DNA from: Malus domestica
Lineage: Eukaryota; Streptophyta; Magnoliopsida; Rosales; Rosaceae
Direction: 5' to 3'
DNA length: 64,000 nucleotides
Assembly: GCF_042453785.1 (NCBI RefSeq)
Contig: NC_091675.1
Span: 9,250,501-9,314,500 of the forward strand
Under the pieces are notes generated by a model. That model was not told the DNA's origin. It did no database searches and saw nothing but the letters and a program-made list of their open reading frames with translations. Below, piece by piece: positions 1 to 48,224 of the stretch; positions within the stretch are counted from its first letter, which is position 1, and each line of letters begins with the position of its first letter. A program made the position numbers and the translations under genes.

Positions 1-300
1 TTTGGTTGGATTTGTTTGCTCTCTGTGTGTCTGGAACAACGGAGAGAAGGATAAAAAGTTGAATTTAAATAGTGGATTGGAGTCAATGACGTGGAGGGCG
101 GGAAGCCGTCGATTATATCTGAGATCTGGGATCTAGATGGGAACCTGGGAGAGACTGGCGGTAGTGTCGGGCGGCGTGTCTGAAAGAATTATGACACGTG
201 TGAGCGTGTTTGTATGAATGGGTTCGGACGGGGTGGAGCACGACCTATTTTAGTAAAAGGAGGCGCGACTGAGCGTACGGGTTACGGAGATACCTACTTG
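1..300 (-). promoter_or_regulatory. Possible promoter/5' leader of a minus-strand gene beyond the left edge
   Basis: This stretch is richer in G+C than the next kilobase. Read on the minus strand it shows a TATA-like CTATTTAAAT near 67-76, followed about 30 bases on by a pyrimidine-rich stretch that could be a transcription start and leader. A CACGTG-type ACGT core also lies near 193-200. No coding exon is inside the window, so this is inference from composition and one TATA-like match. Confidence 0.25.
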
Positions 301-1372
301 ATAGAGACGTCCTAAAGTAAACTAATAAATATTTACCTTAAAAAATACGTAAAATTAGGAAAATAATTCTCTCCGGATCTCTTCACCAAATTCATTCAGT
401 CATCTAATTTGAATTTTTGAAATTTGATCTAACAGTTTATGTTATTATAATTTTTAAAGAGGTTCTTTATTTGTAGCATTTAGATCAAATTTTAAGGAAT
501 CAAATTCATTGATTGGGTGAATTTGATGGAGGGGATCCTGATCCCTTTCCGTAAACTTGTATTCCAGTCCAAAAAAATCGACTGTTTCAAATCAAGTCCA
601 GTTTTATTGAATTTGGTATTATACCCATTTTGTCCTTTAAAGTAAAAATAAAAATCGATTTAAATTTTTATAAGGCTTTATCTACCCACTTCCTAATAAC
701 AAATATTTTAAAAATTCATATACTACAAATATGATAAGTTTATCAAAAATTAAAAATTGTGGGAGGTAAGGAACCTGTGATATTGATATAATTAAGGATC
801 TATAATATAGGTATATTATAAAGAAGAAAAACATGTGAGGTAGATTATAAACAAAAACCTATTATATAGGTAAATAAATTAAAGTATTGTCTACCTTCAT
901 GTATACCTATGATGGAGGAAGGCAAATACTTTATAGCTAGAAAGTATATATACTCTACAAACTATGAGCAAAAACCTCTGGTACAAGTTAATAAACATTT
1001 AATTTGAGATAAATTATCATAAACATGTGATATAGGTAGATAAATTACTATTAATCTATAATACATAGAGTATATAATATGGTAGATTGATAAAAATAAA
1101 TAAATAAGTAAAGGAGGGGTTTTTAACTTTAGTCCTTCAAGAAGATTGAAATTTGATAAAAACCTGATGTTAGATTACATATTGATTATAGTCCATTGAT
1201 GTATCCTTAATTCAAAATAATTAATGTGTTTTTTATTCAATGTCTCCCATTAAATATTTAAATTCATTAATATACATATTTAAATTTATTTTTTGACCAA
1301 TTTATTTTTTAAATTTATTAGTTTTATTTTGCATTCTTCAAACTTGAAAGGCTCAATTAGGGTACCTAAATG
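301..1372. other. AT-rich spacer with one degenerate foldback MITE
   Basis: No gene is recognised. Bases about 360-545 form a degenerate foldback that resembles the foldback family also seen at 9348-9526, 37738-37942 and 46275-46500: a GGATC-containing end, a central tgatctaacag...attataattttaaag core, and a GGATC-containing opposite end. Bases 760-1130 are A+T-rich with loosely repeated ATATAGGTA-type words. Confidence 0.5.
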
Positions 1373-3984
1373 TTAATTGACACACCCCGTCCCGAAGGAG
1401 GGCATGCTGGCCGTCACGTGAGAGTGACGTGACCATTTGCACAGTACGTAAGCTTTAAGATACAATTTATAAGTTGATACACCCGAAGGTGAGTCCTAAT
1501 TTTGTCCAATCTGTCAGAACACCGTCGAATTCCTCGTAGTCACCACACCTTTGTGATTCCTGAACCTGGAGGGGCGCAAAACCAAAATTGAGTGGGTCAG
1601 TAAAACAATTCTTTTCCAAATCCAAACATTTCTCAAAACGTTGTAACCCCTCTCCGTAAAACCTGTATACTTTCCCAGAAATGTAAAATATAAATATACA
1701 TATATATTCTCAAACTTCATTTTTACTATCTCAACATTTTTCTTTATCAATCATGCCATGCCATGTCTAATTCAACAGTTAAGTATGGATGCATCAACAA
1801 TAATCATATCAGGTGCAAGAAAGTAATCAACCGGAGGCCCTCTAATAGCCATGTACGGTTGAACCTAGAGCTCAAAATCTATCACTCTCACTCTGCCGGA
1901 GTCACCTCTGTGACCTGTCCGGCCTTCTGCACACAAGTTACGCTCTAGTGCTTTCTCATCAATCATCTGTGCACATAATCTAAGGTCACCCACCAGTCGA
2001 AATCTCACTAACACTCTTCGACTGGCCCGTCGCACCCACTCCGCGTGGACTGTGTGACCAGCATCTACTTGGATCCAAGGCGAGCGTGCGATGCGGTGAA
2101 TACTATAAGCACTAAACCATGGTGCAGGATTTGAGCTCAATATACATTAACATCATCATATCAGTATTTAAATACTCACCTGATACTCACCTGTGCGTCC
2201 GCCGCACCATTCATTCATATGCATCATATCTCAATTTCATACTTTTCATATCATTTCATGCATGGCAATTCGATTCACATTTCTATATACTTTTCATATA
2301 CTTTTATGCATGGCATCTCAATTCACATTTCAATATACTTTTCATTCAATTTCAATTTCTGGGAAAACGTCAAGTATATATATATACGGAAAACAAAACT
2401 GCCCACTCTCACATTTCTATATACTTTTCATATACTTTTATGCATGGCATCTCAATTCACATTTCAATATACTTTTCATTCAATTTCAATTTCTGGGAAA
2501 ACGTCAAGTATATATATATACGGAAAACAAAACTGCCCACTCACCTGGAGTTCGCCCTACAACTCCCTAGCACAATACGCCAAGGCGTCATGACGATCGG
2601 CGCCTAAAACAATAATCAATTCCAACCTCAGAATTCATATCGATAGAATATATAACTTATATAAAATACGTCACTACGTAGTTCAATCCGGAAGATCCAC
2701 CACTCAGATTTTAAATCCATAACTTCCAGAGGTCCACAATATATCTCTAGGATAACATCCTAAAATTTCATTACCATCCAACGGTCGGATCTCCGTCAAT
2801 TTCCAAAACTAAGTGACGGTTAACATTTTATTTTATGAACTTACAACTCCAATTCCGGAAGATCCGTAACTCGGATTCCCAATCCGTAAGTTCCAATAAT
2901 CCTCAAACATTACGTATTGCAACGTATTAAAGTTTGGTAACGATCCAACGGTCGGATCATCAATTCACATTTTCACCTAATGCGAAAACTATAAAACGTT
3001 ATTCGAACACCTAACCAACAATCCTTAATAACTTTCTCATAAGGTGCTCAATTTGGGTATATGAATATACCACAGTGATCTACTCGACGTCACGGACGTC
3101 GACATATTTTTAAAATAATTTTTTACTGTAGCACGCGCCCCCACGCGCCAAGGAAGGCACGGGTCCACGCGCGCCCACGCGCACCTTCTTCCTCGCGGGT
3201 TCGCCGGACTGGTTTTTCCGGTGGCCGGAAAACTGGGGAATTTTCAAATGCTTCGTTCTCCTTCGTTTCTCAACCATTTTCTTCGTATAATATATCAATT
3301 TAAAGCCCTCAACATGTAGAATCACAATATACTACTTTTAAGCTTCAAAAACAACTAAATCTCACCGGAAAAATCCAAGCAAAACCGGCCAAACTTAACC
3401 CTCGTGATCCCGACGTCCAAATCCTTCCAACGAAGCACTCCGAGCTTCCTTGGGACCTCACTAAGCTCACTATGAGCTTGGATTGTCCTAAAAATCAACC
3501 AATTCAAAGCTCATGAACAGTACACATTCACGGCAACTTTAGAAACTAGGGTTTTCGAAGTGAAACTTACCTTAAACTGGTACCTACGTGATCGTGGAGT
3601 CCTCAGGAGTGCAATGGTGGTTTTAAATCCGGCGTTGGTAATAGTTTTAGGTGGTTTTGATGGTTGCCCGTGTGTTCGAGAGGGTGAGAGAGAGAGAGTG
3701 AGGTCTGAGGAAGAGAAAGAGAGTATGAAGGACAGTATACGGGAAATGGGGAGGGAAATAAGGAATGGGGATCCCACGTGGTCCTTTTCCAATCCCCAAC
3801 TCTAAACCACAAAATTTTAACCTAAAAATCTAAGTTCCATCCTTATTAAATTCCATTTTATTTTCAAAACTTAGGAACCTAGATAATTATCAACTTGAGC
3901 TTCACATACTTAGTATTTCTTAAGGGCAATTTCGTCCATTCACAGCCACGAATGTAATATTTTGGAACGGGCTGTGACATTAAT
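1373..3984. mobile_element. Solo LTR, about 2.6 kb, probably Ty3/gypsy (fossil)
   Basis: The element spans 1378-3979 and is bounded by an exact 5-bp target duplication, TTAAT, at 1373-1377 and 3980-3984. Its ends are TGACACACCCCGTCCC and GGAACGGGCTGTGACA, imperfect inverted repeats typical of long LTRs of plant Ty3/gypsy (Tekay/Retand-like) elements. No internal coding region or second LTR is present, so it reads as a solo LTR left by recombination between LTRs. It contains a 134-bp tandem duplication (2276-2543) and two degenerate copies of a roughly 130-bp module around 2690-2960. It sits inside a degenerate ACCAAAATGT-type repeat visible on both sides. Family assignment is by resemblance only. 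Confidence 0.8.
2276..2543. repeat. 134-bp tandem duplication inside the solo LTR
   Basis: Two nearly identical units (2276-2409 and 2410-2543) follow head to tail. Each contains a TATATATATA run and ends with GCCCACTC. The near identity suggests a recent unequal-crossover or slippage event within the LTR. Confidence 0.85.
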
Positions 3985-4644
3985 ATCGAAATGTTAGTAT
4001 CAAAATGTATTATATTGAATTAATGTACCAAAATTTAATACCGAAATGTATTATATTTAATTAATGTACCTAAATGTTTGTATTAAAATGTATGTACCAA
4101 AATGTGTGTAACTAAATGTGTGCACCTAAATGTATGCATCAAAATGTACTATTATGAATTTAATGTACCTAATGAAGAAGACAAAGTACATTGAAATATA
4201 TTGTATAACAAAATTTAGTTTATCTAATGTTTACAACAAAATATATTATGATAAATGAAATAAAAATTAGAATTATAATGAAATATAATTAATACATTAA
4301 AATTAGAAAGAAAAAAGATAAATAATTAAAACATCAAAATATAATTAATAAATGAGGTGATTAATGTGTTAATTGACTAAAATAAGATTTTGATCTTACT
4401 ATGTTTTTAGTCTATAGTCATCTTTGCTAAGAATTAAAATGAAGTTTCCTATATAAAAAAAAATCCTATAATGCAGGTAGATAAACACCAATGAAACCAA
4501 GTGTGGCATTCGGATCATTTTCTCATCCCTCATAATCACCCCAAAATCACCCAACCTATAATTCTTATGAAAGAGTTTTAAGTTATTAACGGATTAGTTC
4601 AAATACTATAATTAAGGAATCAGTCCAACTATTAATCCTAAAGT
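3985..4644. repeat. AT-rich degenerate short tandem repeat
   Basis: Up to about 4200 the sequence is a loose array of words such as ACCAAAATGTA and TAATGTACC. The same pattern appears just left of the solo LTR (about 1355-1377), so the LTR landed in a pre-existing array. The rest is plain AT-rich DNA with no gene seen. Confidence 0.55.
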
Positions 4645-4649
4645 TAAGT

Positions 4650-4998
4650 TGTTGATACACAAAACCGGAGGCATTGGAACAACGTAAATCCAACTGTGAA
4701 TCTGCATGAAAGTAAATGCACACAAGATGTATCGTTGTTCATCCCAAGGTTTGGGCTACGTCCACACTGATTATGTATTTATCTGAGGGAGAGAGAGCTC
4801 TGAGAGTGAGAGTTTTGAGAGGGGGTGAGAGGGCCTAGGAAATGGTCTCCTCTAATTGTGAGGGTGAGGGGTCATTTTATAGAATAAGGACTCATCATTT
4901 ATTACATATTTACCACTTCCTTTATCACATAATTACATTTAAGTCCCTCGAGTATTTGTACGAGATCTAAATACGAGGCCTTAAATATGGTATAAACA
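4650..4998 (-). repeat. Element A, 3' LTR (left copy)
   Basis: A 349-bp terminal repeat running TGTTGATACAC to TATAAACA, matched by 8210-8568. On the minus strand it has the CTATAAAA TATA-like core near 4876. The adjacent internal bases (4999 onward) are pyrimidine-rich on the plus strand, consistent with a polypurine tract on the minus strand. Confidence 0.85.
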
Positions 4999-5214
4999 GT
5001 AGTCCCCCAAATCTTCAGTCAAGAAAGTATTTTGGCTGAAGACTTGAAATTCAGTCCATGTGTGGGCCGAAGTAACTAGATGTTGTCTTGAACTGATGTT
5101 CGATGTAAGGCGGTGCTCAATCTGAAATGATGCTCGACTATCACATGTTGCGAGACTGCTCGGCTTGTGGCTTATGTTGCCTTGGTTGGCTCGGCTTGTG
5201 GCGTTGAAGGTGAG

Positions 5215-5690
5215 AGAGTCCCTTTTATATAATAAGGGTTTGCTCCTCAATACATAAATGATGGGCTAGAGTTGATGCTCACGGCGAGGCGGTTGCTCAG
5301 TAGGTGGCGATGCTCTCTAATGGTGGTGAGGGAGCCCCTTTTATAGAATAAGGGCTCGCTCCTCAATACATAAGTGATGGGTTATGAGTGATGCTCGCGG
5401 CGAGGCGGTTGCTCAGGCGGCGTTGCTCTCTAATGAAGATGAATGAGTCCCTTTTATAGAATAATGGCTCGCTCCTCAATACATAAATGATGGGCTAGAG
5501 TTGATGCTCGCGGATAGGCGTTGCTCAGTAAGCGGTGATGCTCTCTAATGGTAGTGAAGGAGTCCATTTTATATAATAAGGGCTCGCTCCTCAATACATA
5601 AGTGATGGGTGCTTTCTAATGAAAGTGAGGGAGTCCCTTTTATAGAATAATGGCTCGTTCCTCATTACATAAATAATGGGCTAAGTTCCC
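5215..5690 (-). repeat. Element A promoter-like tandem array (~115-bp units)
   Basis: About five head-to-tail units, the last truncated, each carry the minus-strand core TATTCTATAAAAGGG or a close variant; the cores lie near 5225, 5341, 5456, 5571 and 5641. The same core and its flanks (start of the CTCACC leader, ATTAGAGA word) occur once in each LTR, so the units look derived from the LTR promoter/R region. They lie immediately upstream of the 3' LTR in element sense. Confidence 0.75.
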
Positions 5691-5830
5691 CAAGTATTTT
5701 TCATGAGACCCAGTTGAGGCCCAATATATGGTGTATAGTGTAGTCCCCCAAGTTTTCGGTCAATAGAGTCTGTTGGCTGGAGACTTCAAATTGAATCCAT
5801 GTATGAGCCGAAGTGACGGTTGTTCCGAAG
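5690..5830 (-). repeat. Element A internal copy of LTR-edge sequence
   Basis: This block resembles 4935-5075, which covers the end of the left LTR plus adjacent internal sequence. Both contain the GTAGTCCCCCAA purine-tract region followed by TTGGCTG and GAGACTTCAAAT-type words. The internal region therefore contains a second, degenerate copy of an LTR/PPT junction. Confidence 0.65.
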
Positions 5831-5844
5831 AGGTATTTGTATAC

Positions 5845-6420
5845 CCTGCACTGAAGCTTTGTAGGTGAAGCTTTGCAGGTGAAACTTTGAAGCTAGAGCT
5901 TTGTAAATGAAGCTTTTGAAGCTAATTGATATGAGTGATGCTCATGAATGTTTATGTTGATTGACATGAGTAATGCTCATAGATGTTGTCATGAGTGATG
6001 CTCATGAATGTTAACATAAGTGATGCTCATGAATGTTGACATGAATGATGGTCATGAATGTTTATGTGTGATTGTCATGAGTGATGCTCATGAATGTTTA
6101 TGTATAAATGACATGAGTAATGCTCATATATAATTTGGAGTACTGGGCGTACTTTTGATCACCTGGTTGGTGGCATGAAGGAGAGTACGGGTTGTACATT
6201 TCATCACCTGGTCGGTGGCATGAATGGCTAGTTGCCAAATGATATTAGAGTACGGGTTGTACATTTCATCACCTGGTTGGTGGTAATAGCGGCAGGTTGC
6301 CGAATAATTTTGGAGTACTGGGCGTACTTTTGGTCACCTGGTTGATGATAATAGAGGGAGGTTGCCGAATAATTTTGGAGTACTGGGCGTACTTTTGGTC
6401 ACCTGGTTGGTGCTATTTTG
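5845..6420 (-). repeat. Element A short-period tandem arrays
   Basis: Three consecutive arrays are visible. The first has GAAGCTTTG-type units (about 5845-5925). The second has about 24-bp ATGAGTGATGCTCATGAATG units (about 5930-6135). The third has about 60-bp units with GTACTGGGCGTACTTTTG and TCACCTGGTTGGTG (about 6140-6410). The same three arrays occur in the same order in element B. No coding function is apparent. Confidence 0.8.
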
Positions 6421-6796
6421 GGCTTATAGGTCTTTGCCCTCCACACAATATTCCAGCCCATTTATTTTGGGCTTGCTGATTTTTTTTTACCATCTGATGG
6501 GGTTTATACATATTACCCTCTGATGGGGTTTATACAGATATCTCCGAAAGATAAAATAAATTACATCATTATGGTGGGGTGTTTATTCCTTGCTTTTGCT
6601 TTCTCTTTTCTCTAAAATGACAGCTGCTTTGGACAGCCTTTCTGACATCGCTCATTTGCTTTTCTCTGGATTTAAAAAAAAAAAAGGAAAATGCATCCGT
6701 CGACAAAAGCAAAAGTATAATCTTTCTCTTTTAGCTTTTGCTTTTACTTTACAGAGTGCAGATGGCACTCAAGTTCTCTATTTCCCCATGGCTTTC

Positions 6797-7042
6797 CTAG
6801 CCGTCGGTGTCGGTCTGAGCAATCATAACCTCAAGACCACTGCCAGCCAAGGCACTTATGATTGACTCCTCTGTATCTAAAAGCTTCACCTTCTGAATCT
6901 CACTGTCTCTTAGCATCTGAACCACCATCTCCGGCGGCAACTTGTGGGTTGCCATCGTTCCCCAATTCACACCAAGACCTTCCACACCATTGCAAACACA
7001 CAACATAGCCACCACAACCAAAACCCACATCATCATTTCCAT
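6797..7042 (-). pseudogene. Captured GH17 beta-1,3-glucanase 5' fragment in element A
   Basis: Read on the minus strand, this encodes a signal-peptide-like hydrophobic stretch ([14 protein letters not shown]) followed by [18 protein letters not shown] and [12 protein letters not shown]. These match the mature N-terminus of GPI-type glucan endo-1,3-beta-glucosidases (GH17), which cleave callose in cell walls. The fragment stops after about 80 residues, near [12 protein letters not shown], far short of the catalytic Glu residues of a roughly 450-residue enzyme. No intron is seen between signal peptide and mature region, which suggests capture from mRNA but needs comparison with the donor gene. 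It lies in the same sense as the element. It is a non-functional passenger. Confidence 0.75.
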
Positions 7043-7140
7043 ATTCCTAGCACCGGCAACGGAACCATAAAGCTGCTGGAAACTGACCGACAAGAACAAA
7101 ACGACCCCGTTTGGGCAAACGGACATTGCACTGCTTGAAA

Positions 7141-7299
7141 ATGGTGCAAAAAGGCTGTGGCGGAGGACATGCAGAGGTGGAGAGCTGCGACGGCCGCTCA
7201 GTTGTGGTGGGGGTGAAGCTGTACTCGAAGAGCAGAGAGCTGCTGACGTGGGCTTTGGTCAAGGTGGGTCAGTCTGGTGACGGTGGGTCAGCCTGCTGA
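7141..7299 (+). pseudogene. Captured universal-stress-protein/kinase N-terminal fragment in element A
   Basis: The plus strand starts at an ATG and reads about 52 residues including [20 protein letters not shown] and ALVKVG. This resembles the USP-type nucleotide-binding N-terminus of plant receptor-like cytoplasmic kinases (pattern GRTVVVGVKLD...[17 protein letters not shown]). The downstream USP and kinase parts are absent. It is opposite in orientation to the element and to the neighbouring captured pieces. Identification is by motif memory only. Confidence 0.6.
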
Positions 7300-7480
7300 C
7301 GTGGGCGTAGGCGTAGTCCGGGGGTGGAAGATTCCTTCGCTGCCACCATGGATAACGAAGGCGTTGCCTTTGGTGGTGGATCTCTGAGCGGCGTACTTGT
7401 GGACCGGTGCCTCTACGCTCAAAACGCAAGGAGAGCAGGAGCTGGAGAACATCGCATTATAAATTCAAATCCCTAATTCC
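7300..7480 (-). other. Element A cargo, unidentified coding-like piece
   Basis: This G+C-rich stretch lies between two recognisable captured fragments. Minus-strand reading gives a Ser/Thr-rich open stretch resembling an organelle-transit leader (MFSSSCSPCVLSVEAPVHKY, then STTKGNAFVIHGGSEG). I do not recognise the protein. Base composition matches the captured fragments rather than the AT-rich element chassis, so it is probably another passenger. Confidence 0.35.
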
Positions 7481-7489
7481 CAATTCCCC

Positions 7490-7656
7490 AAATCTCGAAT
7501 TTGAGATACCTCTCATCCGTGGTTCTTGAGCTTTCGCCCCAGGCGCTGGCCGACGAAATCCATTCCGGCGATGAATATCCGGTTCGGCTTTGGGTCCATT
7601 TTCACTTTGGCGAAAGCTCAAGAAATTCGTCCTGCAGCAGGCCAGCACCGCAGCCA
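7490..7656 (-). pseudogene. Captured Rossmann-fold protein N-terminal fragment in element A
   Basis: Minus-strand sequence encodes a leader-like MAAVLACCRTNFLSF, and in another frame MDPKPNRIFIAGMDFVGQRL followed by GRKLKNHG. The latter resembles the first beta-alpha unit of plant NAD(P)-binding Rossmann proteins (pattern RxxIxGMGFVGxxxAxxLKxxGW). Only the start of such a protein is present and it is broken. The donor family (possibly AT1G19690-like) is a guess from memory. Confidence 0.45.
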
Positions 7657-7694
7657 TCTCTGTCGCTCACTGGCTCGGTTGCTGGAGAGTGGAG

Positions 7695-8038
7695 ACCAAA
7701 ATTTGAAGATGTAGAGCTTGGTTCCAATTCCTTAATGTCCTCGTTGGAAATGCCATAATCAAGATTGGAGATGTAGAGCTTGGTTCTAGTTTCGATAGCC
7801 GAGGCTCTTCTAGCTGGAACCGCGTAAGCCGCCGCCCCAAGATTCTTATACATGTCGTGTTGCCACGCAGTCTCCGGCGCCTTGGGCGCAGCCACGTATA
7901 GCGCAGGGCGATTGGGCAAGCTGCGGGCGGGTCCGGGTCCAGAGGGCCCCGGCCGCCGCGACCTCGGGTGTTACCAGATCTGGATTTCTTGCTGGTCTTG
8001 ATGAGGTCGTCCAGGGACATGCTTAGAGGGTCCTGCAT
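7695..8038 (-). pseudogene. Captured ALY/REF (THO4-like) fragment in element A
   Basis: From an ATG at 8038 on the minus strand the reading includes LSMSLDDLIKTSKKSRSGN and RGRGGRG, then in other frames YVAAPKAPETAWQHDMY, SAIETRTKLYISNLDYG and NEDIKEL. This is the N-terminal arm and the first half of the RRM of plant ALY/REF mRNA-export adaptors, where TKLYISNLDYGVSNEDIKELF contains RNP2. The fragment is broken and contains a small internal duplication. It lies directly inside the primer-binding-site end of the element, in element sense, and cannot encode a functional RRM. Confidence 0.8.
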
Positions 8039-8209
8039 CTTTGTTTGACTAAAGCAAGAAACAAAATCCTAGGAGCGAGAAAGTGGAGAGAGAGAGAGGG
8101 GGTTCTGTGTCTGTGTCTCTGTGTGGGTTTTGTAGATTCATGGCAGAGGTGAAAAATTGAGAGAAAACCGACTTAACTTTTCATGTCAATTCCCACAGAC
8201 GGCGCCAAA

Positions 8210-8568
8210 TGTTGATGCACAAAACGGGAGGTCTTGGAACAATGTAAATCCGACTGTGAATGTGCATGAAAGTAAATGACACAAGATGTATCGTGGTTCA
8301 CCCCAAGTTTAGGCTACGTCCACACTGATTATGTATTTATATGAGGGAGAGAGAGCTCTGAGAGTGAGAGCTTTGAGAGGGGGTGAGAGGGCCTAGGAAT
8401 TGGCCTAGGAAATGGCCTCCCCTAATTGTGAGGGTGATGGGTCCTTTTATAGAATAAGGACTCTTCACTTATTACATATTTGCCAATTCCTTTATCACAT
8501 AATTACATTTAAGTCTCTCAAGTATTTGTAAAAAATCTAAATACGAGGTCCTAAATATAGTATAAACA
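8210..8568 (-). repeat. Element A, 5' LTR (right copy) and adjacent primer site
   Basis: A 359-bp terminal repeat running TGTTGATGCAC to TATAAACA. On the minus strand it carries CTATAAAAGGA (near 8446-8456), followed by a CTCTCAAAGCTCTCACTC leader. The bases just inside (8192-8209) are the tRNA-Asp-like primer-binding site in minus orientation. It is slightly longer than its partner because of a short CCTAGGAATTGG repetition. Confidence 0.85.
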
Positions 8569-8573
8569 TAAGT

Positions 8574-9347
8574 GATTATGTGCATTTACATATATAATAA
8601 TTTATAATCTTAAGGGTATGTTGGTGTGAAAATGTAACAATGCAAATGTGTAATCCTAGTCACCGGACCTATTTCACATAAGTGGATTGTTTCCAATTGT
8701 GGCCCACAAAATTGGATCTATATCAAGTTTCCTCTAAATATATTCCCTCATTTACCTTATATTTCCATTTTTTACTCACTAATCCAAATTAATATTTCGT
8801 TTACGATTTTGTTATGACTTAAGGTTTAAATTGCTTTTATATTCAAATTCGATTTTGGTGAAACTCGAATCTAAGACTTCTCATTTATAAGTAAAGAGAA
8901 TTATCACCCTCTATTCTTTTGTGTAAATAATATCATATGTTAAAAAAAAAAATGTTGCTTTTATGTTTCTTAAAAACAAAAGTTATGTTTATGTTTTGCT
9001 GATAATTAAAGTATTAAAATGAGAATTATAGGGTAATATTAAATATATTGAGTTAATCGCAAATGTGGCGTCTCGGTTAATTAATAAATAAAAGTTGATA
9101 TTGGTGGACAACTAACTTTCTTTTCTGGTTAGTTAAATGTTTTTTATTCTCGAAATCTTGATTGTGCTTTTGTTATAATAAGAAAAATAATAAAAGCAAA
9201 TTTAGTGGTCTTTCTTTTTCTTGAAAATTACTAGACGTCTAACAATTAGAGTTTTATTTTAAGTACTTTTTTATTTATTTTATAAAGCTATGACAAACGT
9301 CCAATTAAAGGTTCCATTCAAAAGGAAAGGCTTTAGCTTAAATACCA
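8574..9347. other. AT-rich spacer
   Basis: No gene is recognised. A worn fragment near 8850-8930 (TAAGTAAAGAGAATTATCACC) resembles pieces at 13150-13210 and 26180-26235, so a dispersed repeat is likely. Confidence 0.4.
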
Positions 9348-9675: not shown

Positions 9676-9748
9676 GGTCGCGTGGCCTAATGGATAAGGC
9701 GCTCGCCTCCGGAGCGGGAGATTGTGGGTTCGAGTCCCACCGTGATCG
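9676..9748 (+). tRNA. tRNA-Arg (anticodon CCG)
   Basis: The 73-nt sequence folds as a tRNA. The acceptor stem GGTCGCG pairs with CGTGATC through G-U pairs. The D arm is GCC...GGC, the anticodon stem CTCGC/GCGGG encloses loop CTCCGGA (anticodon CCG, reading CGG), and the T stem GTGGG/CCCAC encloses TTCGAGT. The internal A box (TGGCCTAATGG) and B box (GGTTCGAGTCC) are intact. A T run at 9753-9760 is a Pol III terminator. No intron is present, and CCA is not encoded, as expected for a nuclear tRNA. Confidence 0.95.
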
Positions 9749-21367: not shown

Positions 21368-21809
21368 CATATTCAACAAATGTCTAGTTCTCTCACCTGA
21401 AGACGATTAGTTGCTGCCCTTGTTTACACCACCACCAAATTTGAATTTGCGATTACGAGGCTCTTGGAGTGAGATGTGCAGTATTAAGACCGGAGACATC
21501 CGCTCAGTGGTGGATTTAACTGTTAACTGGAAACGGAGTGTACGTATTCTTCCATACCAACCAGCAGGTGTTGGAAACAACGCCTGCACAATTTGGCATT
21601 GGCAGCTGCTTGCTGATTTAGTTTGTTTGGGCTTTGTCATTGTATACCATGAATATTTTCCCTTCTTCCAATATTTCGGTCACATATGCTCAAATTTTGA
21701 AGCGACGGTAAACGCAAAATGTAGTTTCATATATACTGTTGATCGTAGGTTTTTTGTTGGAACTATATTAGTTGTGCGTGTATGCAAGCTCGTGTTTTTT
21801 TTTTTTAGT

Positions 21810-22187
21810 TGTTGATGCGCAAAACTTGAGGTTTTGGACAACGTAAATCCAACCGTGAATATGCAAGAAATGTAAATAACACAAGATATATCGTGGTTCA
21901 CCCCAATGTTTGGGCTACGTTTACACTGATATTGTATTTCTCTATTTGTGAGATGATTGAGAGGGTGAGAGCTTTGCTCTGAATATGAGAGGGGATGTGT
22001 GGCTTATGGCCTAGCAATTGGCCTAAGAATTGGCATCTCCTAATGAGGAGAGTGAGAGGTCTTTTTATAGAACAAGAGCTCCTCACTTATTACATATTTG
22101 CCCATTCATTTATTGTATAATTACATTTGAGTCATCCGAGTATTTATACGAGATCTAAATACGAAAGTCTTAAGTATGGTACAAACA
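21810..22187 (-). repeat. Element B, 3' LTR (left copy)
   Basis: A 378-bp terminal repeat running TGTTGATGCGC to GGTACAAACA, matched by 25693-26083. The minus-strand TATA core lies near 22060-22070. Adjacent internal sequence (22188-22202) is a purine tract on the minus strand (CTTGAGGGACCAC). Confidence 0.85.
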
Positions 22188-22384
22188 GTGGTCCCTCAAG
22201 TCTTCAGTCAAGAGTTTTTTGGCTGGAGACTTGAAATTCAGTCCATGTGTGGGCCGAAGTAATTAGATGTCGTCTTGAACTGATGCTCGATATGAGGCAG
22301 TGCCCAATCTGAAATGATGCTCAACTAGAAGTAGCACATGTTGCAAGGTTGCTCGGCTTGTGGCTTATGTTGCCTTGGTTGGCT

Positions 22385-22925
22385 CGACTTGTGGCATTGA
22401 AGGTGAGGAAGTCCCTTTTATAGAACAATGGCTCGCTCTTCAATACATAAGTGATGGGGTAAGAGTTGATGCTCGCGGCAAGGCGGTTGCTCAATAGGCG
22501 GCAATGCTCTCTAATGATTGTGAGGGAGTTCATTTTATAGAATAAGGGTTTGCTCCTCAATACATAAGTGATGGGCTAAGAGTTGATACTCGCGGCGAGG
22601 CGGTTGCTCAGCATGCGGTGATGCTCTCTAATGATGGTCAGGGAGTCCTTTTTATAGAATAAGGGCTTGCTCCTCAATACATAAGTGTTGGGCTAAAAGT
22701 TGATGCTCACGGCGAGGCGGTTGCTCAGTAGGCGGCGATGCTCTCTAATGATGGTGAGGGAGTCCCTTTTATAAAATAAAGGCTCGTTCCTCAATACATA
22801 AGTGATAGGCTAAGAGTTGATGCTCGCGGCGAGGCAATTGCTCAGCAGGCGGCGATGCTCTATAATAATGGTGAGGGAGTCCATTTTATAAAATAAGGGC
22901 TCGCTTCTCAATACAAAAAATAATG
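22385..22925 (-). repeat. Element B promoter-like tandem array (~118-bp units)
   Basis: Five units each contain a minus-strand TTCTATAAAA-type core or a variant (near 22419, 22536, 22652, 22769 and 22887) plus the GCTCGCGGCGAGGCGGTTGC word. They correspond to the ~115-bp array of element A in position, orientation and sequence, and to the TATA region of the LTRs. Confidence 0.75.
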
Positions 22926-23084
22926 GGCTAAGTCCCTCAAGTATTTTTTTATGAGGCCCAATATATGGTACATAGTGTAGTCCCCCAAGTCTTCAGTCAA
23001 TAGAGTCTATTGGCTGGAGACTTCAAATTGAATCCATGTATGGGCCGAAGTGGCGGTTGTTCGGAGGCGGTATTTGTATACTCT

Positions 23085-23670
23085 GCACTGAAGCTTTGTA
23101 GGTGAAGCTTTGCAAGTGAAACTTTGAAGCTAGAGCTCTGTAAATGAAGCTTTCGAAGCTGGAGTTTTTATAAATGAAGCTTTTGAAGCTAGAGCTTTTG
23201 TAAATGAAGCTTTTGAAGTTAAAGCTCTGTAAATGAAGTTTTTGACGCTAGAGCTCTGTAAATGAAGCTTTTGAAGCTGATTGACAAGAGGGATGCTCAT
23301 GGATGTTGACATGAGTGATGCTCATGAATGTTGACATGAATGATGCTCATGAATGTTTATGTATAATTTGAAAAGAGTGATGCTCATGAATGTTTATGTA
23401 CGATTGATATGAGTAATGCTCATGTATAATTTTGAAGTACTGGACGTACTTTTGATCACCTGGTTGGTGATAATAACGGCAGGCTGCCGAATAATTTTGG
23501 AGTACTGGGCGTACTTTTGATCACCTGGTTGGTGATAATAAGGGCAGGCTGCCGAATAATTTTTTAGTACTGGGCGTACTTTTGATCACCTGGTTGGTGA
23601 TAATAAAGGCAGGCTGCCGAATAATTTTTTGTAGTACTGAACGTACTTTTGATCACCTGATTAATGATAA
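23085..23670 (-). repeat. Element B short-period tandem arrays
   Basis: The order matches element A. About 30-bp AATGAAGCTTTTGAAGCT units (23085-23280) are expanded relative to A. ATGAGTGATGCTCATGAATG units (23285-23430) follow, then about 62-bp units with GTACTGGGCGTACTTTTG and CACCTGGTTGGTG (23440-23670). Confidence 0.8.
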
Positions 23671-24229
23671 TAGAGGGTCTGACTTTTTTGGGCATATGGG
23701 CCTTCGCCTTCCACATAACATTCCAGCCCATTATTTTGGGCTTGCCTTTTTTTAATTTTTTTTATTACCCTCTGATGGGGTTATACAGATATCTCCAAAA
23801 GATACAAAAAATAAATTACATCATTCAAAAATAAATCCGATCCTCTGCTCAATGGATCACGTCCATAATTCCCTTTTCTGCATGTCATCACCACTGCAAT
23901 TATGTCTGCTTCATTTTATCTTCTTTTGCTTTCTGCTTTTACTTTCTGCTTTTCTTTCTGCCTCTCCACCTGGCAGACAAAAGGAATCGTGATAGAATTA
24001 ATAGGAAGCTTATCTTTTGCTTTTCTTAATCTCCCCGCTCCTTGCTTTTGCTTTTTGTATTCCTTTTCTCTAAAGTGACAGCACTTGCTTTTCTTGATCT
24101 CCCCGCTTCAATAAAATTCACCCCTCTCTGACTCATCCCTCCTCCCTGGCCCTGCTCCATTTTTTGAGCATATATAATAAGCTATGACTCTTCCTCATTT
24201 TTCTTTTTTTTAGCAGGTGGCAGACATCT

Positions 24230-24395
24230 TTTTTTCTCTTTTCTCTTTTCTCTTTTCGTCTGGATAACCGTTTTTGAGCCTATACATGCTTCAGCAGGAA
24301 GTCCTTGCAGGCCACGCCCTACAACTTTGAAGTAAGAGCACTGTTCATGGTCCTTCCTATACTTGATGTAAAGAAGAATCACAGCAAGGCATTCG
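24230..24395 (-). pseudogene. Unidentified captured coding piece in element B
   Basis: A minus-strand open stretch reads VILLYIKYRKDHEQCSYFKV and then VGRGLQGLPAEACIGSKTVI. It follows directly on the end of the pectate-lyase piece (its IFRSSHIWV word), making a chimeric junction near 24395. The hydrophobic-then-basic pattern suggests a membrane protein segment, but I do not recognise the family. Confidence 0.35.
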
Positions 24396-25182
24396 AAAAC
24401 CCAAATATGGCTTGACCTGAAGATGGAGACAACATCTCAATCAGCCATTGTCCGCCACCCAAAGTGAATAGGCGAGCTCTTCACCAAAGCATTGCCAGTG
24501 GGCTTGCAATCATAGATGTGCAAGCCGTGGATGATAATATTTATAACAAATTGGATTGTGATGCATCCTCCATTAGCAATGTGAACATTGACTCCGCGAC
24601 CATCAATGGTCTTAAAGCTGTTCATGATGAGCTCATGCTTCAACTGTATCACCATGTCTTGCTTGAACACAATCCAGAGAGGCTTGGTCTGGATGACAGC
24701 ATGGCGAAGAGTACCAGGTTTGGGGTTAACAAGATCATCATCATTAGGGTCGGTGACAACATAGAAGCATATCCATCGCGGCCACTAATGGCATTTCTCC
24801 CAAAACGAATGCCACAGTCTGCAAGACGCTTGCGGTTTTTATGCCAGTTGGGATCACAGCGCCAACAGTCATCGATTGGATTGCCAGGTCCACATGAGAA
24901 GTAGCCCAGTTTCCTCTTCTCCGTGCTGTTACGGATACTCATGTCAACCATGGAAGCAATCTCTTCTAGGTCTTCAACTGCATGTTTATTGAATCCTTCA
25001 TCATCCTCAGCCACTATGGCCGCCATTGACGAGTTGCTCGAGCTCTGCAACTCCTTTGTTCCTTCATTGCTGTTGCGAAAGATCTCGGAGACCATGGAGA
25101 CCATGGCAGCTGCGAAGCAACACACGAGAAGCACCGTCACGAACGCACCGACCCATTTCTTCTTACTGTCAAACACTACCAT
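24396..25182 (-). pseudogene. Captured pectate lyase fragment in element B
   Basis: From an ATG at 25182 on the minus strand there is a hydrophobic leader. Typical plant pectate-lyase (PL1) words follow: [52 protein letters not shown], then in another frame [33 protein letters not shown] and [14 protein letters not shown]. These cover about the first 60 percent of the enzyme, up to the start of the calcium-binding/catalytic region, and the piece is broken. No intron-like gap is seen, which suggests origin from spliced RNA. Pectate lyases cut de-esterified pectin in the wall; this copy cannot. It lies in element sense. Confidence 0.85.
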
Positions 25183-25184
25183 TG

Positions 25185-25214
25185 CAATTCCTCTCTCTCT
25201 CTCTCTCTCTTTGA
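25185..25214. repeat. (CT)n microsatellite
   Basis: An uninterrupted CT run lies immediately upstream of the captured pectate-lyase ATG, probably taken along as part of the donor 5' leader. Confidence 0.8.
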
Positions 25215-25310
25215 CTCTCTCTGTAAGGATGAAGGAATGTGGGAGTAGAGAGAAATTAAAGACGCACACACAAATGAAGGTATAGAGAGAGAGAGGGGGG
25301 GGAGGGAGAG

Positions 25311-25530
25311 GTGGTTATGCGAGCTGGAGAGATCGGAATCAGCTTCATAATCCCGATGGTGGGTTTGGGCTTGGTCGAAACACCTACTTCCTTGGGCTTA
25401 GCCTTCGCATTTGCCTTTCTCTTTAGCTTCGGAACAGTACCGGTGGCGGGCTTCGAGGAAAAGAGAGAGATGGGTGGAGAGGGATATATGGGTTCTTGGG
25501 AGGTGAAGCAGAACCATATTTGAAGATTTT
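25311..25530 (-). pseudogene. Captured SWIB/MDM2-like N-terminal fragment in element B
   Basis: One minus-strand frame reads KPATGTVPKLKRKANAKAKP followed by STKPKPTIGIMKLIPISPAR. This Lys/Pro-rich leader running into GIMK-PISPA resembles the start of the SWIB domain in small plant SWIB/MDM2 proteins (pattern TGILKPxPVSPALGKFLG). The piece ends there and the domain itself is absent. It occupies the position next to the primer site that ALY/REF takes in element A. The assignment is tentative. Confidence 0.4.
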
Positions 25531-25692
25531 TGTTATTTTGATTTTTTGTCTATGATTTTGGAGCAGCTATGGGAACAGCCTGCTGAGATCTGCTGTGTTT
25601 TGGTGGGGGTTTTTGTAGATTCACGGTGGAGGTGAAAAAATGAAAGAGAACCGACACAACTTTTTGTATCGATTCCCACAAACGGCGTCAAA

Positions 25693-26083
25693 TGTTGATG
25701 CACAAAACCGGAGGTCTTGGAACAACGTAAATCTGACCGTAAATCTGCAAGAAATGTAAATAACACAAGATGTATTGTGGTTCACCCCAATGTTTGGGCT
25801 ATGTCCACACTGATATTGTATTTCTCTATTTGTGAGAGGATTGAGAGGGTGAGAGCTTTGCTCTGAATATGAGAGGGGATGTGAGGCTTATGGACTAGCA
25901 ATTGGCCTAGCAATTGGCCTAAAAATTGGCCTCCTCCAATAAGGAGAGTGATGGGTCATTTTATAGAACAAGGGCTCCTCACTTATTACATATTTACCCC
26001 TTCATTTATTGCATAATTACATTTGAGTTACCCGAGTATTTATACAAGATATAAATGCGGAGACCCTAAGTATGGTACAAACA
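25693..26083 (-). repeat. Element B, 5' LTR (right copy) and adjacent primer site
   Basis: A 391-bp terminal repeat running TGTTGATGCAC to GGTACAAACA. The minus-strand TATA core TTCTATAAAATGACC is near 25960, with a CTCTCAATCCTCTCAC-type leader beyond it. The primer-site-like sequence lies at 25673-25692. Confidence 0.85.
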
Positions 26084-26415
26084 TTAGTATATCGATATTG
26101 TTACACTAAGGGAGGGGGAGTTTGGCAAAGGCACACAATGGCCAGCCTAATTTGGTATCGAATTCAACATTCATAAAATTCGAACCTAACGTCTCTTACT
26201 TCTAAATGAAAAGAAATACCACCAGACCATAGTATTGAATGGCTGGAGCTCGTGTTTCTGTTAAGGCACAACACATAATACCAATTCTGAGAAAAAGTAT
26301 GGTTTTTTCCATGTAATTCTTACTCTTAACAAAAGTTGTTACGGAACCAAACTCGTGTACCTCAAATTCTAGTAGCAGAGAATGACCGTTGGATTATCTT
26401 TTGATCATTTAGGTA

Positions 26416-26712
26416 CCGTTTGGTACGCAGACGGGACGGAACGGGACGGGACGAGACATAACAGGATGGGACGGGACGGAACAGATGATGTAAATATTGA
26501 AAAAGATAAGGAGAAATTTTGTCATAAAATGTTATAAATTCGTGTTCCACGGATGTGGAACGAGTCGTTCCAGGGGGAAGAGGTGGAACGAAAAATCAGT
26601 CAAATTTCGTCCCATGGGACAACCCGTTCCACAGTTTTTAGGTGCACCAAATGTGGGACGGAACGGCTCGTCCCATTCCGTCCCGTCCCGTCCCGTCCCA
26701 CATACCAAACTG
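26416..26712. mobile_element. hAT-like MITE with GGGACGG-rich inverted ends
   Basis: The ends CCGTTTGGTACGCAGACGGG and, inverted, CAGTTTGGTATGTGGGACGG frame a sequence of GGGACGG/CCGTCCC repeats. TAGGTA occurs on both outer sides as a possible partial target duplication. It lies 330 bases upstream of the next gene's start and so may form part of its promoter region. Confidence 0.6.
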
Positions 26713-46864: not shown

Positions 46865-48224
46865 CTATTTATAGGGTAAATTACACAGTAGCCCCTCAGG
46901 TATTGAGGTTATTACAACCTCATACAACAACTTTAAAACATTTCACTTTCATACTTCATGTACTATTTTATTTCAAAACAACACCTCCGTTAGATTTTCC
47001 ATCCAATGGACTGTTAAATGCTGACGTGGCTGCCACATTTGTATTGATGTGGCTGCCACATGGCCTAAATAATAATTTTTTATACATTAATAATATTATA
47101 ATATTAACCATATTTAAAAAAATAAAAAAATAAAAAAAAAGAAAAACCCGAACCCAATCCCCTTCATTTCCCCCACCTATCTGTAACTCCCCCAGAAGAA
47201 GAAGAAACCAAACCCCTCCCCCTCCCGCCGAAGACCCACTTGCCTTTCCCCCCTCGCGACGACCCACTTGCTATGAAAACCCCCCCCCCCCCGCGCGACG
47301 ACCCATCTGCCGTGACCCACCCCCCCCCCGGCGCAACGACCCACCTGCCGTGACCCCCCCCCACGATGACCCACCTGCTGTGACCCCCCCCCCCCACGAT
47401 GACCCACCTGCTGTGAACACCCCCCCCCCGCGACGACCCATCTAGGCACCTCTGCCCTTCCCGTCGATGATAAGCTCGCGACCCCCCCCCGGGCGACGGT
47501 TGCAGGTTGTGGGTTGTGGGTTGTGGTTTTGCAGGTAGTGGGTTGCGGGTTGTGGTTTTGCAGGTAGTGGGTTGCAGGTATTTGGGTTGCAGGGGTTTCT
47601 AAGAAAAATAGTGGAAAAAAAGCAGATAAGTGATTAAAGGTGGGGGCTTTGAGGCGGGAGAGGTGGAGGGGGATATGGATTTTGGGGGAAGGAGACGCAT
47701 GGAGGCAGAGGGTGGCGGGGGAAGAGGTGGGGAGATGGGTGGAATTCGAAGTTCAAACCCTAGAGAAGGAGAGGGAATGAAGGAATTGAAAAAAGGGTGT
47801 CAGGGAGTGTGTTGGGGTTGGTGTGGAGGAAGAAGAAGAGTGGGAGAGATGGGTAAGGGGGTGGGGACAGACTGACGGGAAGGAAGAGATGGGTAAGGGG
47901 GTGGGGGTGAGATGTGGGGTTGTGGGGAAGGGGATCTGGGTTCGGGTTTTCTGGTTTTTTTTTTTTTTTTTTTTTTTTAGGGTTAATATTATAATATTGT
48001 TAATGTATACAAATTTATTTTTTTGCCATGTGGCAGCCACATCAGCACAAATGTGGCAGCCACGTCAGCATTTAACAGTCAATTGGATGGAAAATCTAAC
48101 GGAGGTGTTGTTTTGAAATAAAATAGTACATGAGGTATGAAAGTGAAATGTTTTAAAGTTGTTGTATGAGGTTGTAATAACCTCAATACCTGAGGGGCTA
48201 CTGTGTAATTTACCCCTATTTATA
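46865..48224. mobile_element. Mutator-like element with long TIRs, 9-bp target duplication and a C-tract core
   Basis: The element spans 46874-48215 (1342 bp) with exact flanking CTATTTATA. Inverted ends begin GGGTAAATTACACAGTAGCC and continue for over 250 bases through GTGGCAGCCAC-type words. No transposase. The centre (47150-47950) is extremely strand-asymmetric: C-rich on the left half, G-rich on the right. Confidence 0.85.
47275..47490. repeat. C-tract minisatellite (GACCCACCTGCCGTGACC plus C runs)
   Basis: About eight imperfect ~25-30-bp units of GACGACCCACCTGCCGTGAC are separated by runs of 7 to 12 C. The minus strand has many G runs able to form G-quadruplexes. A GTGGGTTGCGGGTTGTGG-type repeat follows at 47500-47590. 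Confidence 0.8.

Follow-up and report, generated by a model that had tools for sequence, protein, structure and literature searches.

Gene Capture by Plant LTR Retrotransposons

The capture of host genes by plant retrotransposons with long terminal repeats (LTRs) has been reviewed, with template switching as one of the possible routes (PMC13317346), and the same review describes maize Bs1 as an LTR element carrying pieces of three host genes, one of them a β-1,3-glucanase. Here, we analyze a 64,000-nucleotide stretch of the apple (Malus domestica) genome (contig NC_091675.1, positions 9,250,501 to 9,314,500 of the forward strand; hereafter the window), which contains two LTR elements, A and B, sharing one framework (the chassis) and carrying different pieces of host genes (the cargo). 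The reading that we prefer, at a probability of about 0.72, is that spliced host RNAs were captured repeatedly by template switching into one slot of this chassis, followed by the formation of small sibling groups and by reshuffling. Gene capture by LTR elements is known, and it is its scale and regularity that we rate as unusual here. No report of a comparable family was found in searches of open-access papers, which leave aside preprints and most subscription journals.

At the level of excerpts from the cited papers, several known systems share some of these properties. Terminal-repeat retrotransposons in miniature (TRIMs) of soybean and Medicago, e.g., GmaRetroS15 (30 elements, 7 subfamilies, 1.2-1.4 kb), have exon-only fragments, up to three genes per element, and 5-bp duplications (PMC4717578), whereas in the apple family there are 1,860 leader matches, A and B measure 3.9-4.3 kb, and a chassis with tandem arrays is combined with a single slot. 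LTR elements of rice and sorghum also contain host genes, but as annotated genes in many LTR elements, and a single mosaic-making family is not described in the excerpted text (PMC3726574). Bs1 resembles A and B in that intronless host exons from several genes lie inside an LTR element; as excerpted from the review, however, it is one element with three transductions, whereas in the apple family nearly every sampled copy has a set of its own. The case for host-mRNA capture by plant LTR elements has so far been built on comparatively few examples, and the apple genome alone seems to hold very many bordered, datable captures in one chassis, whose source genes are traceable.

Pack-MULEs are DNA transposons with terminal inverted repeats and a 9-bp duplication, whereas A and B have LTRs and 5-bp duplications. 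The two systems are similar in that many elements carry many host-gene fragments: rice Pack-MULEs number in the thousands and carry pieces of more than 1,000 host genes (PMC13317346), and Pack-MULE fragments retain introns besides exons (PMC4717578). In Retand/Tat elements (Ty3/gypsy; Retand/Ogre) as excerpted (PMC11963269), tandem arrays like those of A and B frequently but not universally separate the coding part from the 3′ LTR; the pol, reverse transcriptase, and TRP28 of such elements were not found in the A/B family. Rosaceae LTR families without coding genes include the large retrotransposon derivatives (LARDs) and AACA TRIMs of pear and apple (PMC4668562, PMC5659011). According to the excerpts, AACA LTRs begin with AA and are flanked by 6-bp duplications (PMC5659011), whereas A and B begin with TG, have 5-bp duplications, and show TG..CA ends rather than the AA..CA or TG..TT of Rosaceae AACA/TGTT elements. 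The internal region of LARDs is described as conserved, non-coding, and usually over 4 kb (PMC4668562). Similarly, gag and pol were not found in the open reading frames (ORFs) scanned here, but A and B total 3.9 and 4.3 kb and about half of their internal region is variable cargo. Gene fragments or capture are not mentioned in the main text of the pear paper (PMC4668562).

Structure of Elements A and B

Element B is located on the minus strand at positions 21810..26083, an extent that had been given exactly by an earlier annotation made from the letters alone (the first-pass annotation), and TTAGT abuts both ends. All positions below are those of the whole window, both elements lie on its minus strand, and numbers with L denote loci in the genome. 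The parts of B, from its 5′ to its 3′ end, and the position of A are as follows.

26084..26088, unstranded: target-site duplication TTAGT, right copy, from the sequence
25693..26083, minus strand: 5′ LTR of B, from LTR comparison and relatives genome-wide
25673..25692, minus strand: primer-binding site (PBS) region of B, TTTGACGCCGTTTGTGGGAA
25616..25692, minus strand: conserved leader including the PBS, the upstream edge of the cargo slot (1860 genome matches to the leader pattern)
23943..24098, minus strand: extended 3′ chassis edge, common to the subgroup L025-L028 and L033
23884..23961, minus strand: A/G-rich tract, where similarity to other copies starts in 30 of 40 scored loci
23426..23676, minus strand: 65-bp tandem array, 3′ chassis
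23281..23357, minus strand: 25-bp tandem array, 3′ chassis
23123..23278, minus strand: 29-bp tandem array, 3′ chassis
22398..22932, minus strand: 117-bp tandem array, 3′ chassis
22188..22202, minus strand: purine-rich stretch GACTTGAGGGACCAC adjoining the 3′ LTR, likely the polypurine tract
21810..22187, minus strand: 3′ LTR of B, 89.9% identical to the 5′ LTR (Kimura two-parameter distance, K, 0.110)
21805..21809, unstranded: target-site duplication TTAGT, left copy, from the sequence
4650..8568, minus strand: element A, same chassis, with a cargo of ALY/THO4, several short segments, and GH17

The LTRs of both elements start with TGTT and end with CAACA, and A is flanked on both sides by TAAGT; TG..CA termini with 5-bp target-site duplications are those of an LTR retrotransposon. 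The first-pass annotation had assigned the same LTRs, primer site, orientation, and array order to A and B. The PBS region is indeed conserved (TTTGGCGCCGTCTGTGGGAA in A, TTTGACGCCGTTTGTGGGAA in B), the orientation is the same, and the arrays follow one another in identical order (units of 117, 29, 25, and 65 bp in B). The LTRs belong to one family, with the qualification that they are 80-83% identical between A and B, compared to 91.9% within the A pair and 89.9% within the B pair. In alignment, chassis identity between the two elements is 76.6% for the 3′ half and 85% for the stretch from the last LTR bases through the leader; LTR, leader, and 3′ half can be aligned, and no cargo is common to both. 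Within the window, B is matched only by A and by a short CT-rich stretch. The only tRNA gene in the window, tRNA-Arg (CCG) at 9676-9748, has a 3′ end that does not fit the family PBS; a partial fit of this PBS to tRNA-Asp may exist.

The LTR-to-LTR K values of 0.086 for A and 0.110 for B correspond to insertions about 3.3 and 4.2 million years ago at an assumed rate of 1.3e-8 substitutions per site per year, and to older ones at slower rates. Any usual rate places both insertions millions of years back, and the earlier description of the capture as ongoing is not borne out.

Cargo of Elements A and B

Sources of the cargo were searched for in the 651-Mb genome of 19 contigs (C), where the window lies at C15:9250501-9314500. 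Four pieces of B have a source.

25457..25615, minus strand: cargo 1, 5′ untranslated region (UTR) and N-terminus of an EngB-like GTPase gene (genome match C8:10244216; paralog C15:6785542)
25321..25467, minus strand: cargo 2, N-terminal part of a SWIB-domain gene (genome match C2:28249195, 94%)
24398..25310, minus strand: cargo 3, pectate lyase from the 5′ UTR into exon 4 (parent C13:22447168-22449735; frame broken)
24289..24400, minus strand: cargo 4, two-exon fragment of an unnamed host gene (C12:1464853-1465149; 188-bp GT-AG intron absent)

The first piece (159 bp) begins at about base 469 of the element, where the leader gives way, and the join lies in CAAAAACCC, which is present in both leader and gene. 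The ORF of the C8 gene matches Pfam MMR_HSR1 (1.2e-7), and we read this source gene as EngB-like; it had been missed in the first-pass annotation. The SWIB-like piece and the pectate lyase named there are both borne out. The former (147 bp) gives no match in Pfam or among PDB sequences by its own ORF, but the ORF of its source gene carries the SWIB domain (E 2.8e-10). The latter (913 bp) matches Jun a 1 in the PDB with E 2.5e-24 and 4.5e-9, split over two reading frames, and lacks introns of 350, 576, and 741 bp, all three with GT-AG borders; a paralog on C16 is a weaker match than the C13 gene. The remaining "unknown piece" is in part the C12 gene fragment (~110 bp), which is also found uninterrupted at three other places in the genome, and about 190 bp between this fragment and the 3′ chassis partly recur elsewhere. 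A Pfam scan of B's own cargo ORFs gave weak, unrelated matches only, and the ORF at 24182-24436 had no match among PDB sequences.

The GTPase-SWIB join of B is also present at C6:221k, C12:695k, C6:7807k, C1:11175k, and C9:30771k. It is followed by pectate lyase at the first three places, whereas at C1 and C9 the similarity ends inside SWIB; smaller, spliced-looking pectate-lyase pieces are found at C17:9135k and C11:39888k. This shared order implies that the cargo of B was amplified after capture, and not every copy represents a fresh one, three relatives having the SWIB and pectate-lyase order of B. The differences after SWIB are as expected for stepwise gain or exchange. Two further loci found via B's cargo, outside the slot sample described below, have the same 1.78-kb cargo (L022 and L023, 92%), which includes 60 bp of the SWIB piece in a different context.

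The cargo of A, partly shared by relatives at C4:26.40M and C6:31.96M, contains an ALY/THO4 fragment (PDB match, E 1e-7) whose source gene at C3:8445142-8445617 has an 88-bp GT-AG intron that is absent from A, short segments matching C15, C8, C9/C10, and C8, and a GH17 N-terminus whose Pfam match (E 8e-5) falls short of the curated cut-off (genome match C14:304545). β-1,3-glucanases of the type in Bs1 belong to GH17, and the likeness to Bs1 extends to this glucanase family. A perfect 16-bp inverted repeat in the cargo of A (7523-7538 / 7609-7624) is possibly a fold-back switch during reverse transcription, and a 27-bp near-duplicate (89%; 7703-7729 / 7765-7791) at the end of the ALY/THO4 part looks like a local polymerase jump-back.

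Family Size and the Cargo Slot

A 35-base leader pattern matches the genome 1860 times with at most three mismatches, and its control not at all. A 28-base pattern of LTR end and PBS gives 4302 matches with at most two mismatches (reversed control, 0), a number that includes another LTR family: the first 30 exact matches on C1 comprise nine members of the A/B family and 21 of the other. Relatives of the LTR amount to 3615 first-look candidates genome-wide, of which 40 were scored. Two pattern scans of a viral contig collection and one of a genome contig collection revealed no relatives.

Both edges of the slot are recurrent. On the 3′ side, a search with the chassis edge of B gave 40 scored loci, of which 30 start matching within the same nine bases (query 460-468), at the A/G-rich tract. 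On the leader side, eight of nine C1 copies remain similar to B for 53-67 bases beyond the 28-base pattern, compared to 33 bases in L078. Two candidate edge motifs were discarded, namely CACAG at the leader end of A and B, as the cargo of B starts about 20 bases earlier, and the splice-acceptor-like CTGCCAG beside the 3′ edge of B, which is absent from the edge of most other copies inspected.

Cargo diversity was assessed in 22 slots chosen regardless of cargo: the nine C1 loci and 13 of the 19 loci L025-L043, which had been found by a search with 23826-24420 that matched the chassis side rather than the cargo side, the other six being left out because the leader was absent from the stretch fetched. 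In an all-against-all comparison, where slot-edge matches were not scored as shared cargo, one of 231 pairs (L043/L071) had a common internal piece, of 231 bp. At face value, this corresponds to about 230 types of cargo if all were equally common (95% range, roughly 40 to 9,000). Nearly all sampled copies thus differ in cargo, and the earlier proposal of one chassis whose single slot takes different passengers by repeated capture holds well beyond A and B.

The second LTR family (L064-L069, L072-L077, L079-L082, L084, L086, L088, L090, L093) has the LTR end and PBS of A and B and a different remainder of LTR and leader; the leaders of many of its copies are almost the same. The helper may belong to this family, or it may be a further non-autonomous family.

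Host-Gene Content and Orientation

Host genes could be tied to 17 of the 22 slots, 15 by Pfam families of single ORFs and two (L041 and L089) by multi-exon genome matches. Individually placed ORFs give sense host domains in 11 cargos and antisense domains in four, as identified by Pfam.

L028, sense: HGSNAT, just under the cut-off
L030, sense: 14-3-3
L034, sense: RRM
L036, sense: MVD
L037, sense: Arm
L039, sense: Exo70_C
L042, sense: Alfin and adh_short
L083, sense: TPP_enzyme_N
L085, sense: LOR and Na_sulph_symp
L091, sense: GINT1_N
L092, sense: OTCace_N
L027, antisense: pectate lyase
L031, antisense: THOC7
L071, antisense: OSCP (ATP synthase)
L087, antisense: biotin/lipoyl

In the 22 slots, ORFs of 55 residues or more number 116 in sense and 96 in antisense. 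The ten longest sense ORFs were scanned singly, and 86 sense and 86 antisense ORFs as whole sets, in which 15 Pfam families were found in sense and six in antisense, some of them models that overlap on a single ORF. Neither these scanned ORFs (96 of 116 in sense, 86 of 96 in antisense) nor those scanned in A and B matched a gag or pol family. The cargo shows a bias to sense: in 18 of the 22 slots, the longest ORF runs in the sense direction (p 0.004; Wilcoxon p 0.0009). Among the four other slots, L027, L031, and L087 have an antisense host domain, as does L071. Seven of 12 informative sense matches begin at profile position 1-2, a hint, though not a conclusive one, of the 5′ parts of messages. 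It had also been suggested that cell-wall cargo may reflect the tissue of transcription, such as pollen or fruit. Pectate lyase does recur among the cargos (antisense in L027), but 14-3-3, carbamoyltransferase, mevalonate decarboxylase, Alfin, Exo70, THOC7, OSCP, ALY/THO4, and EngB are found as well, and this suggestion is not sustained.

Mosaic Cargos and Missing Introns

All six cargos mapped to the genome (A, B, L036, L041, L089, and L071) are mosaics of at least three segments matching different places. L036 consists of segments matching C11, C2, and C3/C16, the last of which is also seen elsewhere beside a leader, and of two exons of mevalonate decarboxylase from C2/C7; its successive segment matches overlap by 4-9 bases. 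L041 has three exons of a C17 gene joined to segments matching C10 and C1, and L089 has segments matching C15, C15 again (also at several other loci), the exons of a C3 gene, and C12. In L071, the segments match C2, C13 (here including a module of 230 bp found repeatedly), C10, and C9. This module (query 503-734) is present at 88-91% at five other places, L043 among them, and could be either a frequently captured exon or a repeat.

Ten introns with GT-AG borders, as read in the matching genes, are absent from five of the six mapped cargos (three in the pectate lyase and one in the fourth gene of B, one in THO4 of A, one in L036, two in L041, and two in L089), a number that is not a fraction of all introns, as absent introns are recognizable and kept ones are not when no gene annotation is available. 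Nine of them are gone exactly apart from base changes, and one L089 intron leaves 15 bases. Two other gaps were not counted, namely a 1,515-bp gap at C6 against L071, whose splice borders are absent, and a 92-bp gap of L089, struck out because it looks coding in the C3 gene. In the latter case, L089 (query ~1009) is without 92-99 apparently coding bases bordered by GT..AG, which are kept by its sibling L094 on C8 at 18.6M (C8:18599377-18599475) and by the C3 gene. This stretch may have been lost by splicing of the element's own RNA, or possibly by plain deletion, since its borders share bases.

Cargo and presumed source are 84-98% identical, and ~95% for most of B's pectate lyase. Compared to the K of 0.110 between the LTRs of B, this identity makes capture and amplification look close in time. 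The genome matches fall in paralogous pairs, e.g., C13/C16, C3/C11, C9/C17, C5/C10, and C8/C15, and identity is usually higher to one member of the pair, suggesting from these comparisons that the captures were probably later than the duplication producing the pairs.

Mechanism of Capture and Alternatives

The spliced, multi-gene, abutting cargo between two recurrent edges points to a reverse transcriptase that leaves the element RNA, copies host RNAs, and returns. In this reading, B is one copy of a large, non-autonomous LTR-retrotransposon family, whose internal region runs from a short leader (PBS and ~60-90 bp) through the cargo slot to a 3′ chassis made up of tandem arrays, and the slot would be filled through template switching. 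During minus-strand DNA synthesis, the enzyme would copy the 3′ chassis, quit the element RNA at the A/G-rich tract, which may be the exit site, and then copy one or more co-packaged host mRNAs, spliced before capture, often to their 5′ end, before re-entering the element RNA in the leader. The chimera would integrate, may yield a few sibling copies, and could swap pieces with other copies or gain new ones, with Gag-Pol presumably supplied by a helper element.

Several points weigh against this mechanism. Four of 22 cargos (L027, L031, L071, and L087) have an antisense host domain, which is unexpected from simple switching onto sense mRNAs and would need an extra step, for which antisense transcripts or a template switch on DNA strands are candidates, and five (L033, L038, L043, L070, and L078) have no tie to a host gene. 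Five of the 12 sense domain matches begin well inside the profile. About ten bases between SWIB and pectate lyase in B have no source, gaps between segments are also present in A and L041, and micro-homology is directly visible at one or two joins only. Some segments of L036, L089, and L071 are present at several loci, possibly as repeats or as cargo acquired earlier. Splicing of element RNA could also remove introns from sense cargo after capture, and kept introns would escape recognition, as noted above. A helper element was not found in these searches.

Capture at the DNA level, by Pack-MULE-like gap repair, gene conversion, or nested DNA insertion with sense introns later spliced from the element RNA, would account for cargo in both orientations and for the GT..AG-bordered stretch gone from L089 and kept in its sibling, which could be due to such splicing. 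Pack-MULEs likewise carry several genes per element. However, ten introns are absent in five of six mapped cargos, the 5′ UTR starts of two B genes and of A's THO4 fit messages, and no kept intron was recognized, though the method could hardly see one; we therefore consider this route improbable.

Read-through transduction of neighboring genes, the class in which the review excerpt places Bs1 (PMC13317346), seems a poor fit and unlikely, as the segments of the mapped cargos match several chromosomes and the cargo sits between leader and 3′ chassis rather than beyond an LTR. In the excerpted text of another study, aORFs explained by transduction sit in one or few copies and transduced genes are usually in sense (PMC7264820).

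Both spliced cargo and both orientations would also be explained by separate retrocopies made by long interspersed nuclear elements (LINEs), each inserted by its own target-primed event. LINE retrocopies retain 3′ ends and poly(A), unlike the cargo, which often consists of 5′ gene parts. Moreover, the pieces abut and the slot edges are recurrent, leaving this explanation very improbable. Finally, a single ancestral capture followed by decay or deletion, with different remnants in A and B, could draw on a chassis divergence of roughly a quarter and on the sibling groups with one common cargo, but it is already refuted by the 22-slot sample, where cargo common to most copies, named in the first-pass annotation as the refuting outcome, was not seen (one of 231 pairs), and by mapped cargos that match different genes, which one ancestral cargo of ~1.5 kb cannot hold.

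Returning to template switching, an extension of it is conceivable but on balance doubtful: the slot might be a specialized capture device, with programmed template exit at the A/G-rich tract and re-entry in the leader, in which capture and exchange of host mRNAs are routine in replication, e.g., filling the element to a packageable length. If this were true, each active lineage would keep making new multi-gene exon mosaics, a retroviral-style exon shuffling at Pack-MULE scale. With so many captures, the choice, joining, and orientation of host RNAs by reverse transcriptase become countable, as do the frequency with which captures create new reading frames and any contribution of captured pieces to small RNAs against their parent genes, and many apparent gene fragments in annotations of this genome may be cargo of this family.

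Other Features of the Window

A GACGG-rich inverted-repeat stretch, resembling a miniature inverted-repeat transposable element, lies at 26430-26700, just past the right flank of B. Tandem arrays of 33-38 bp and 29 bp are found side by side at 47248-47593.

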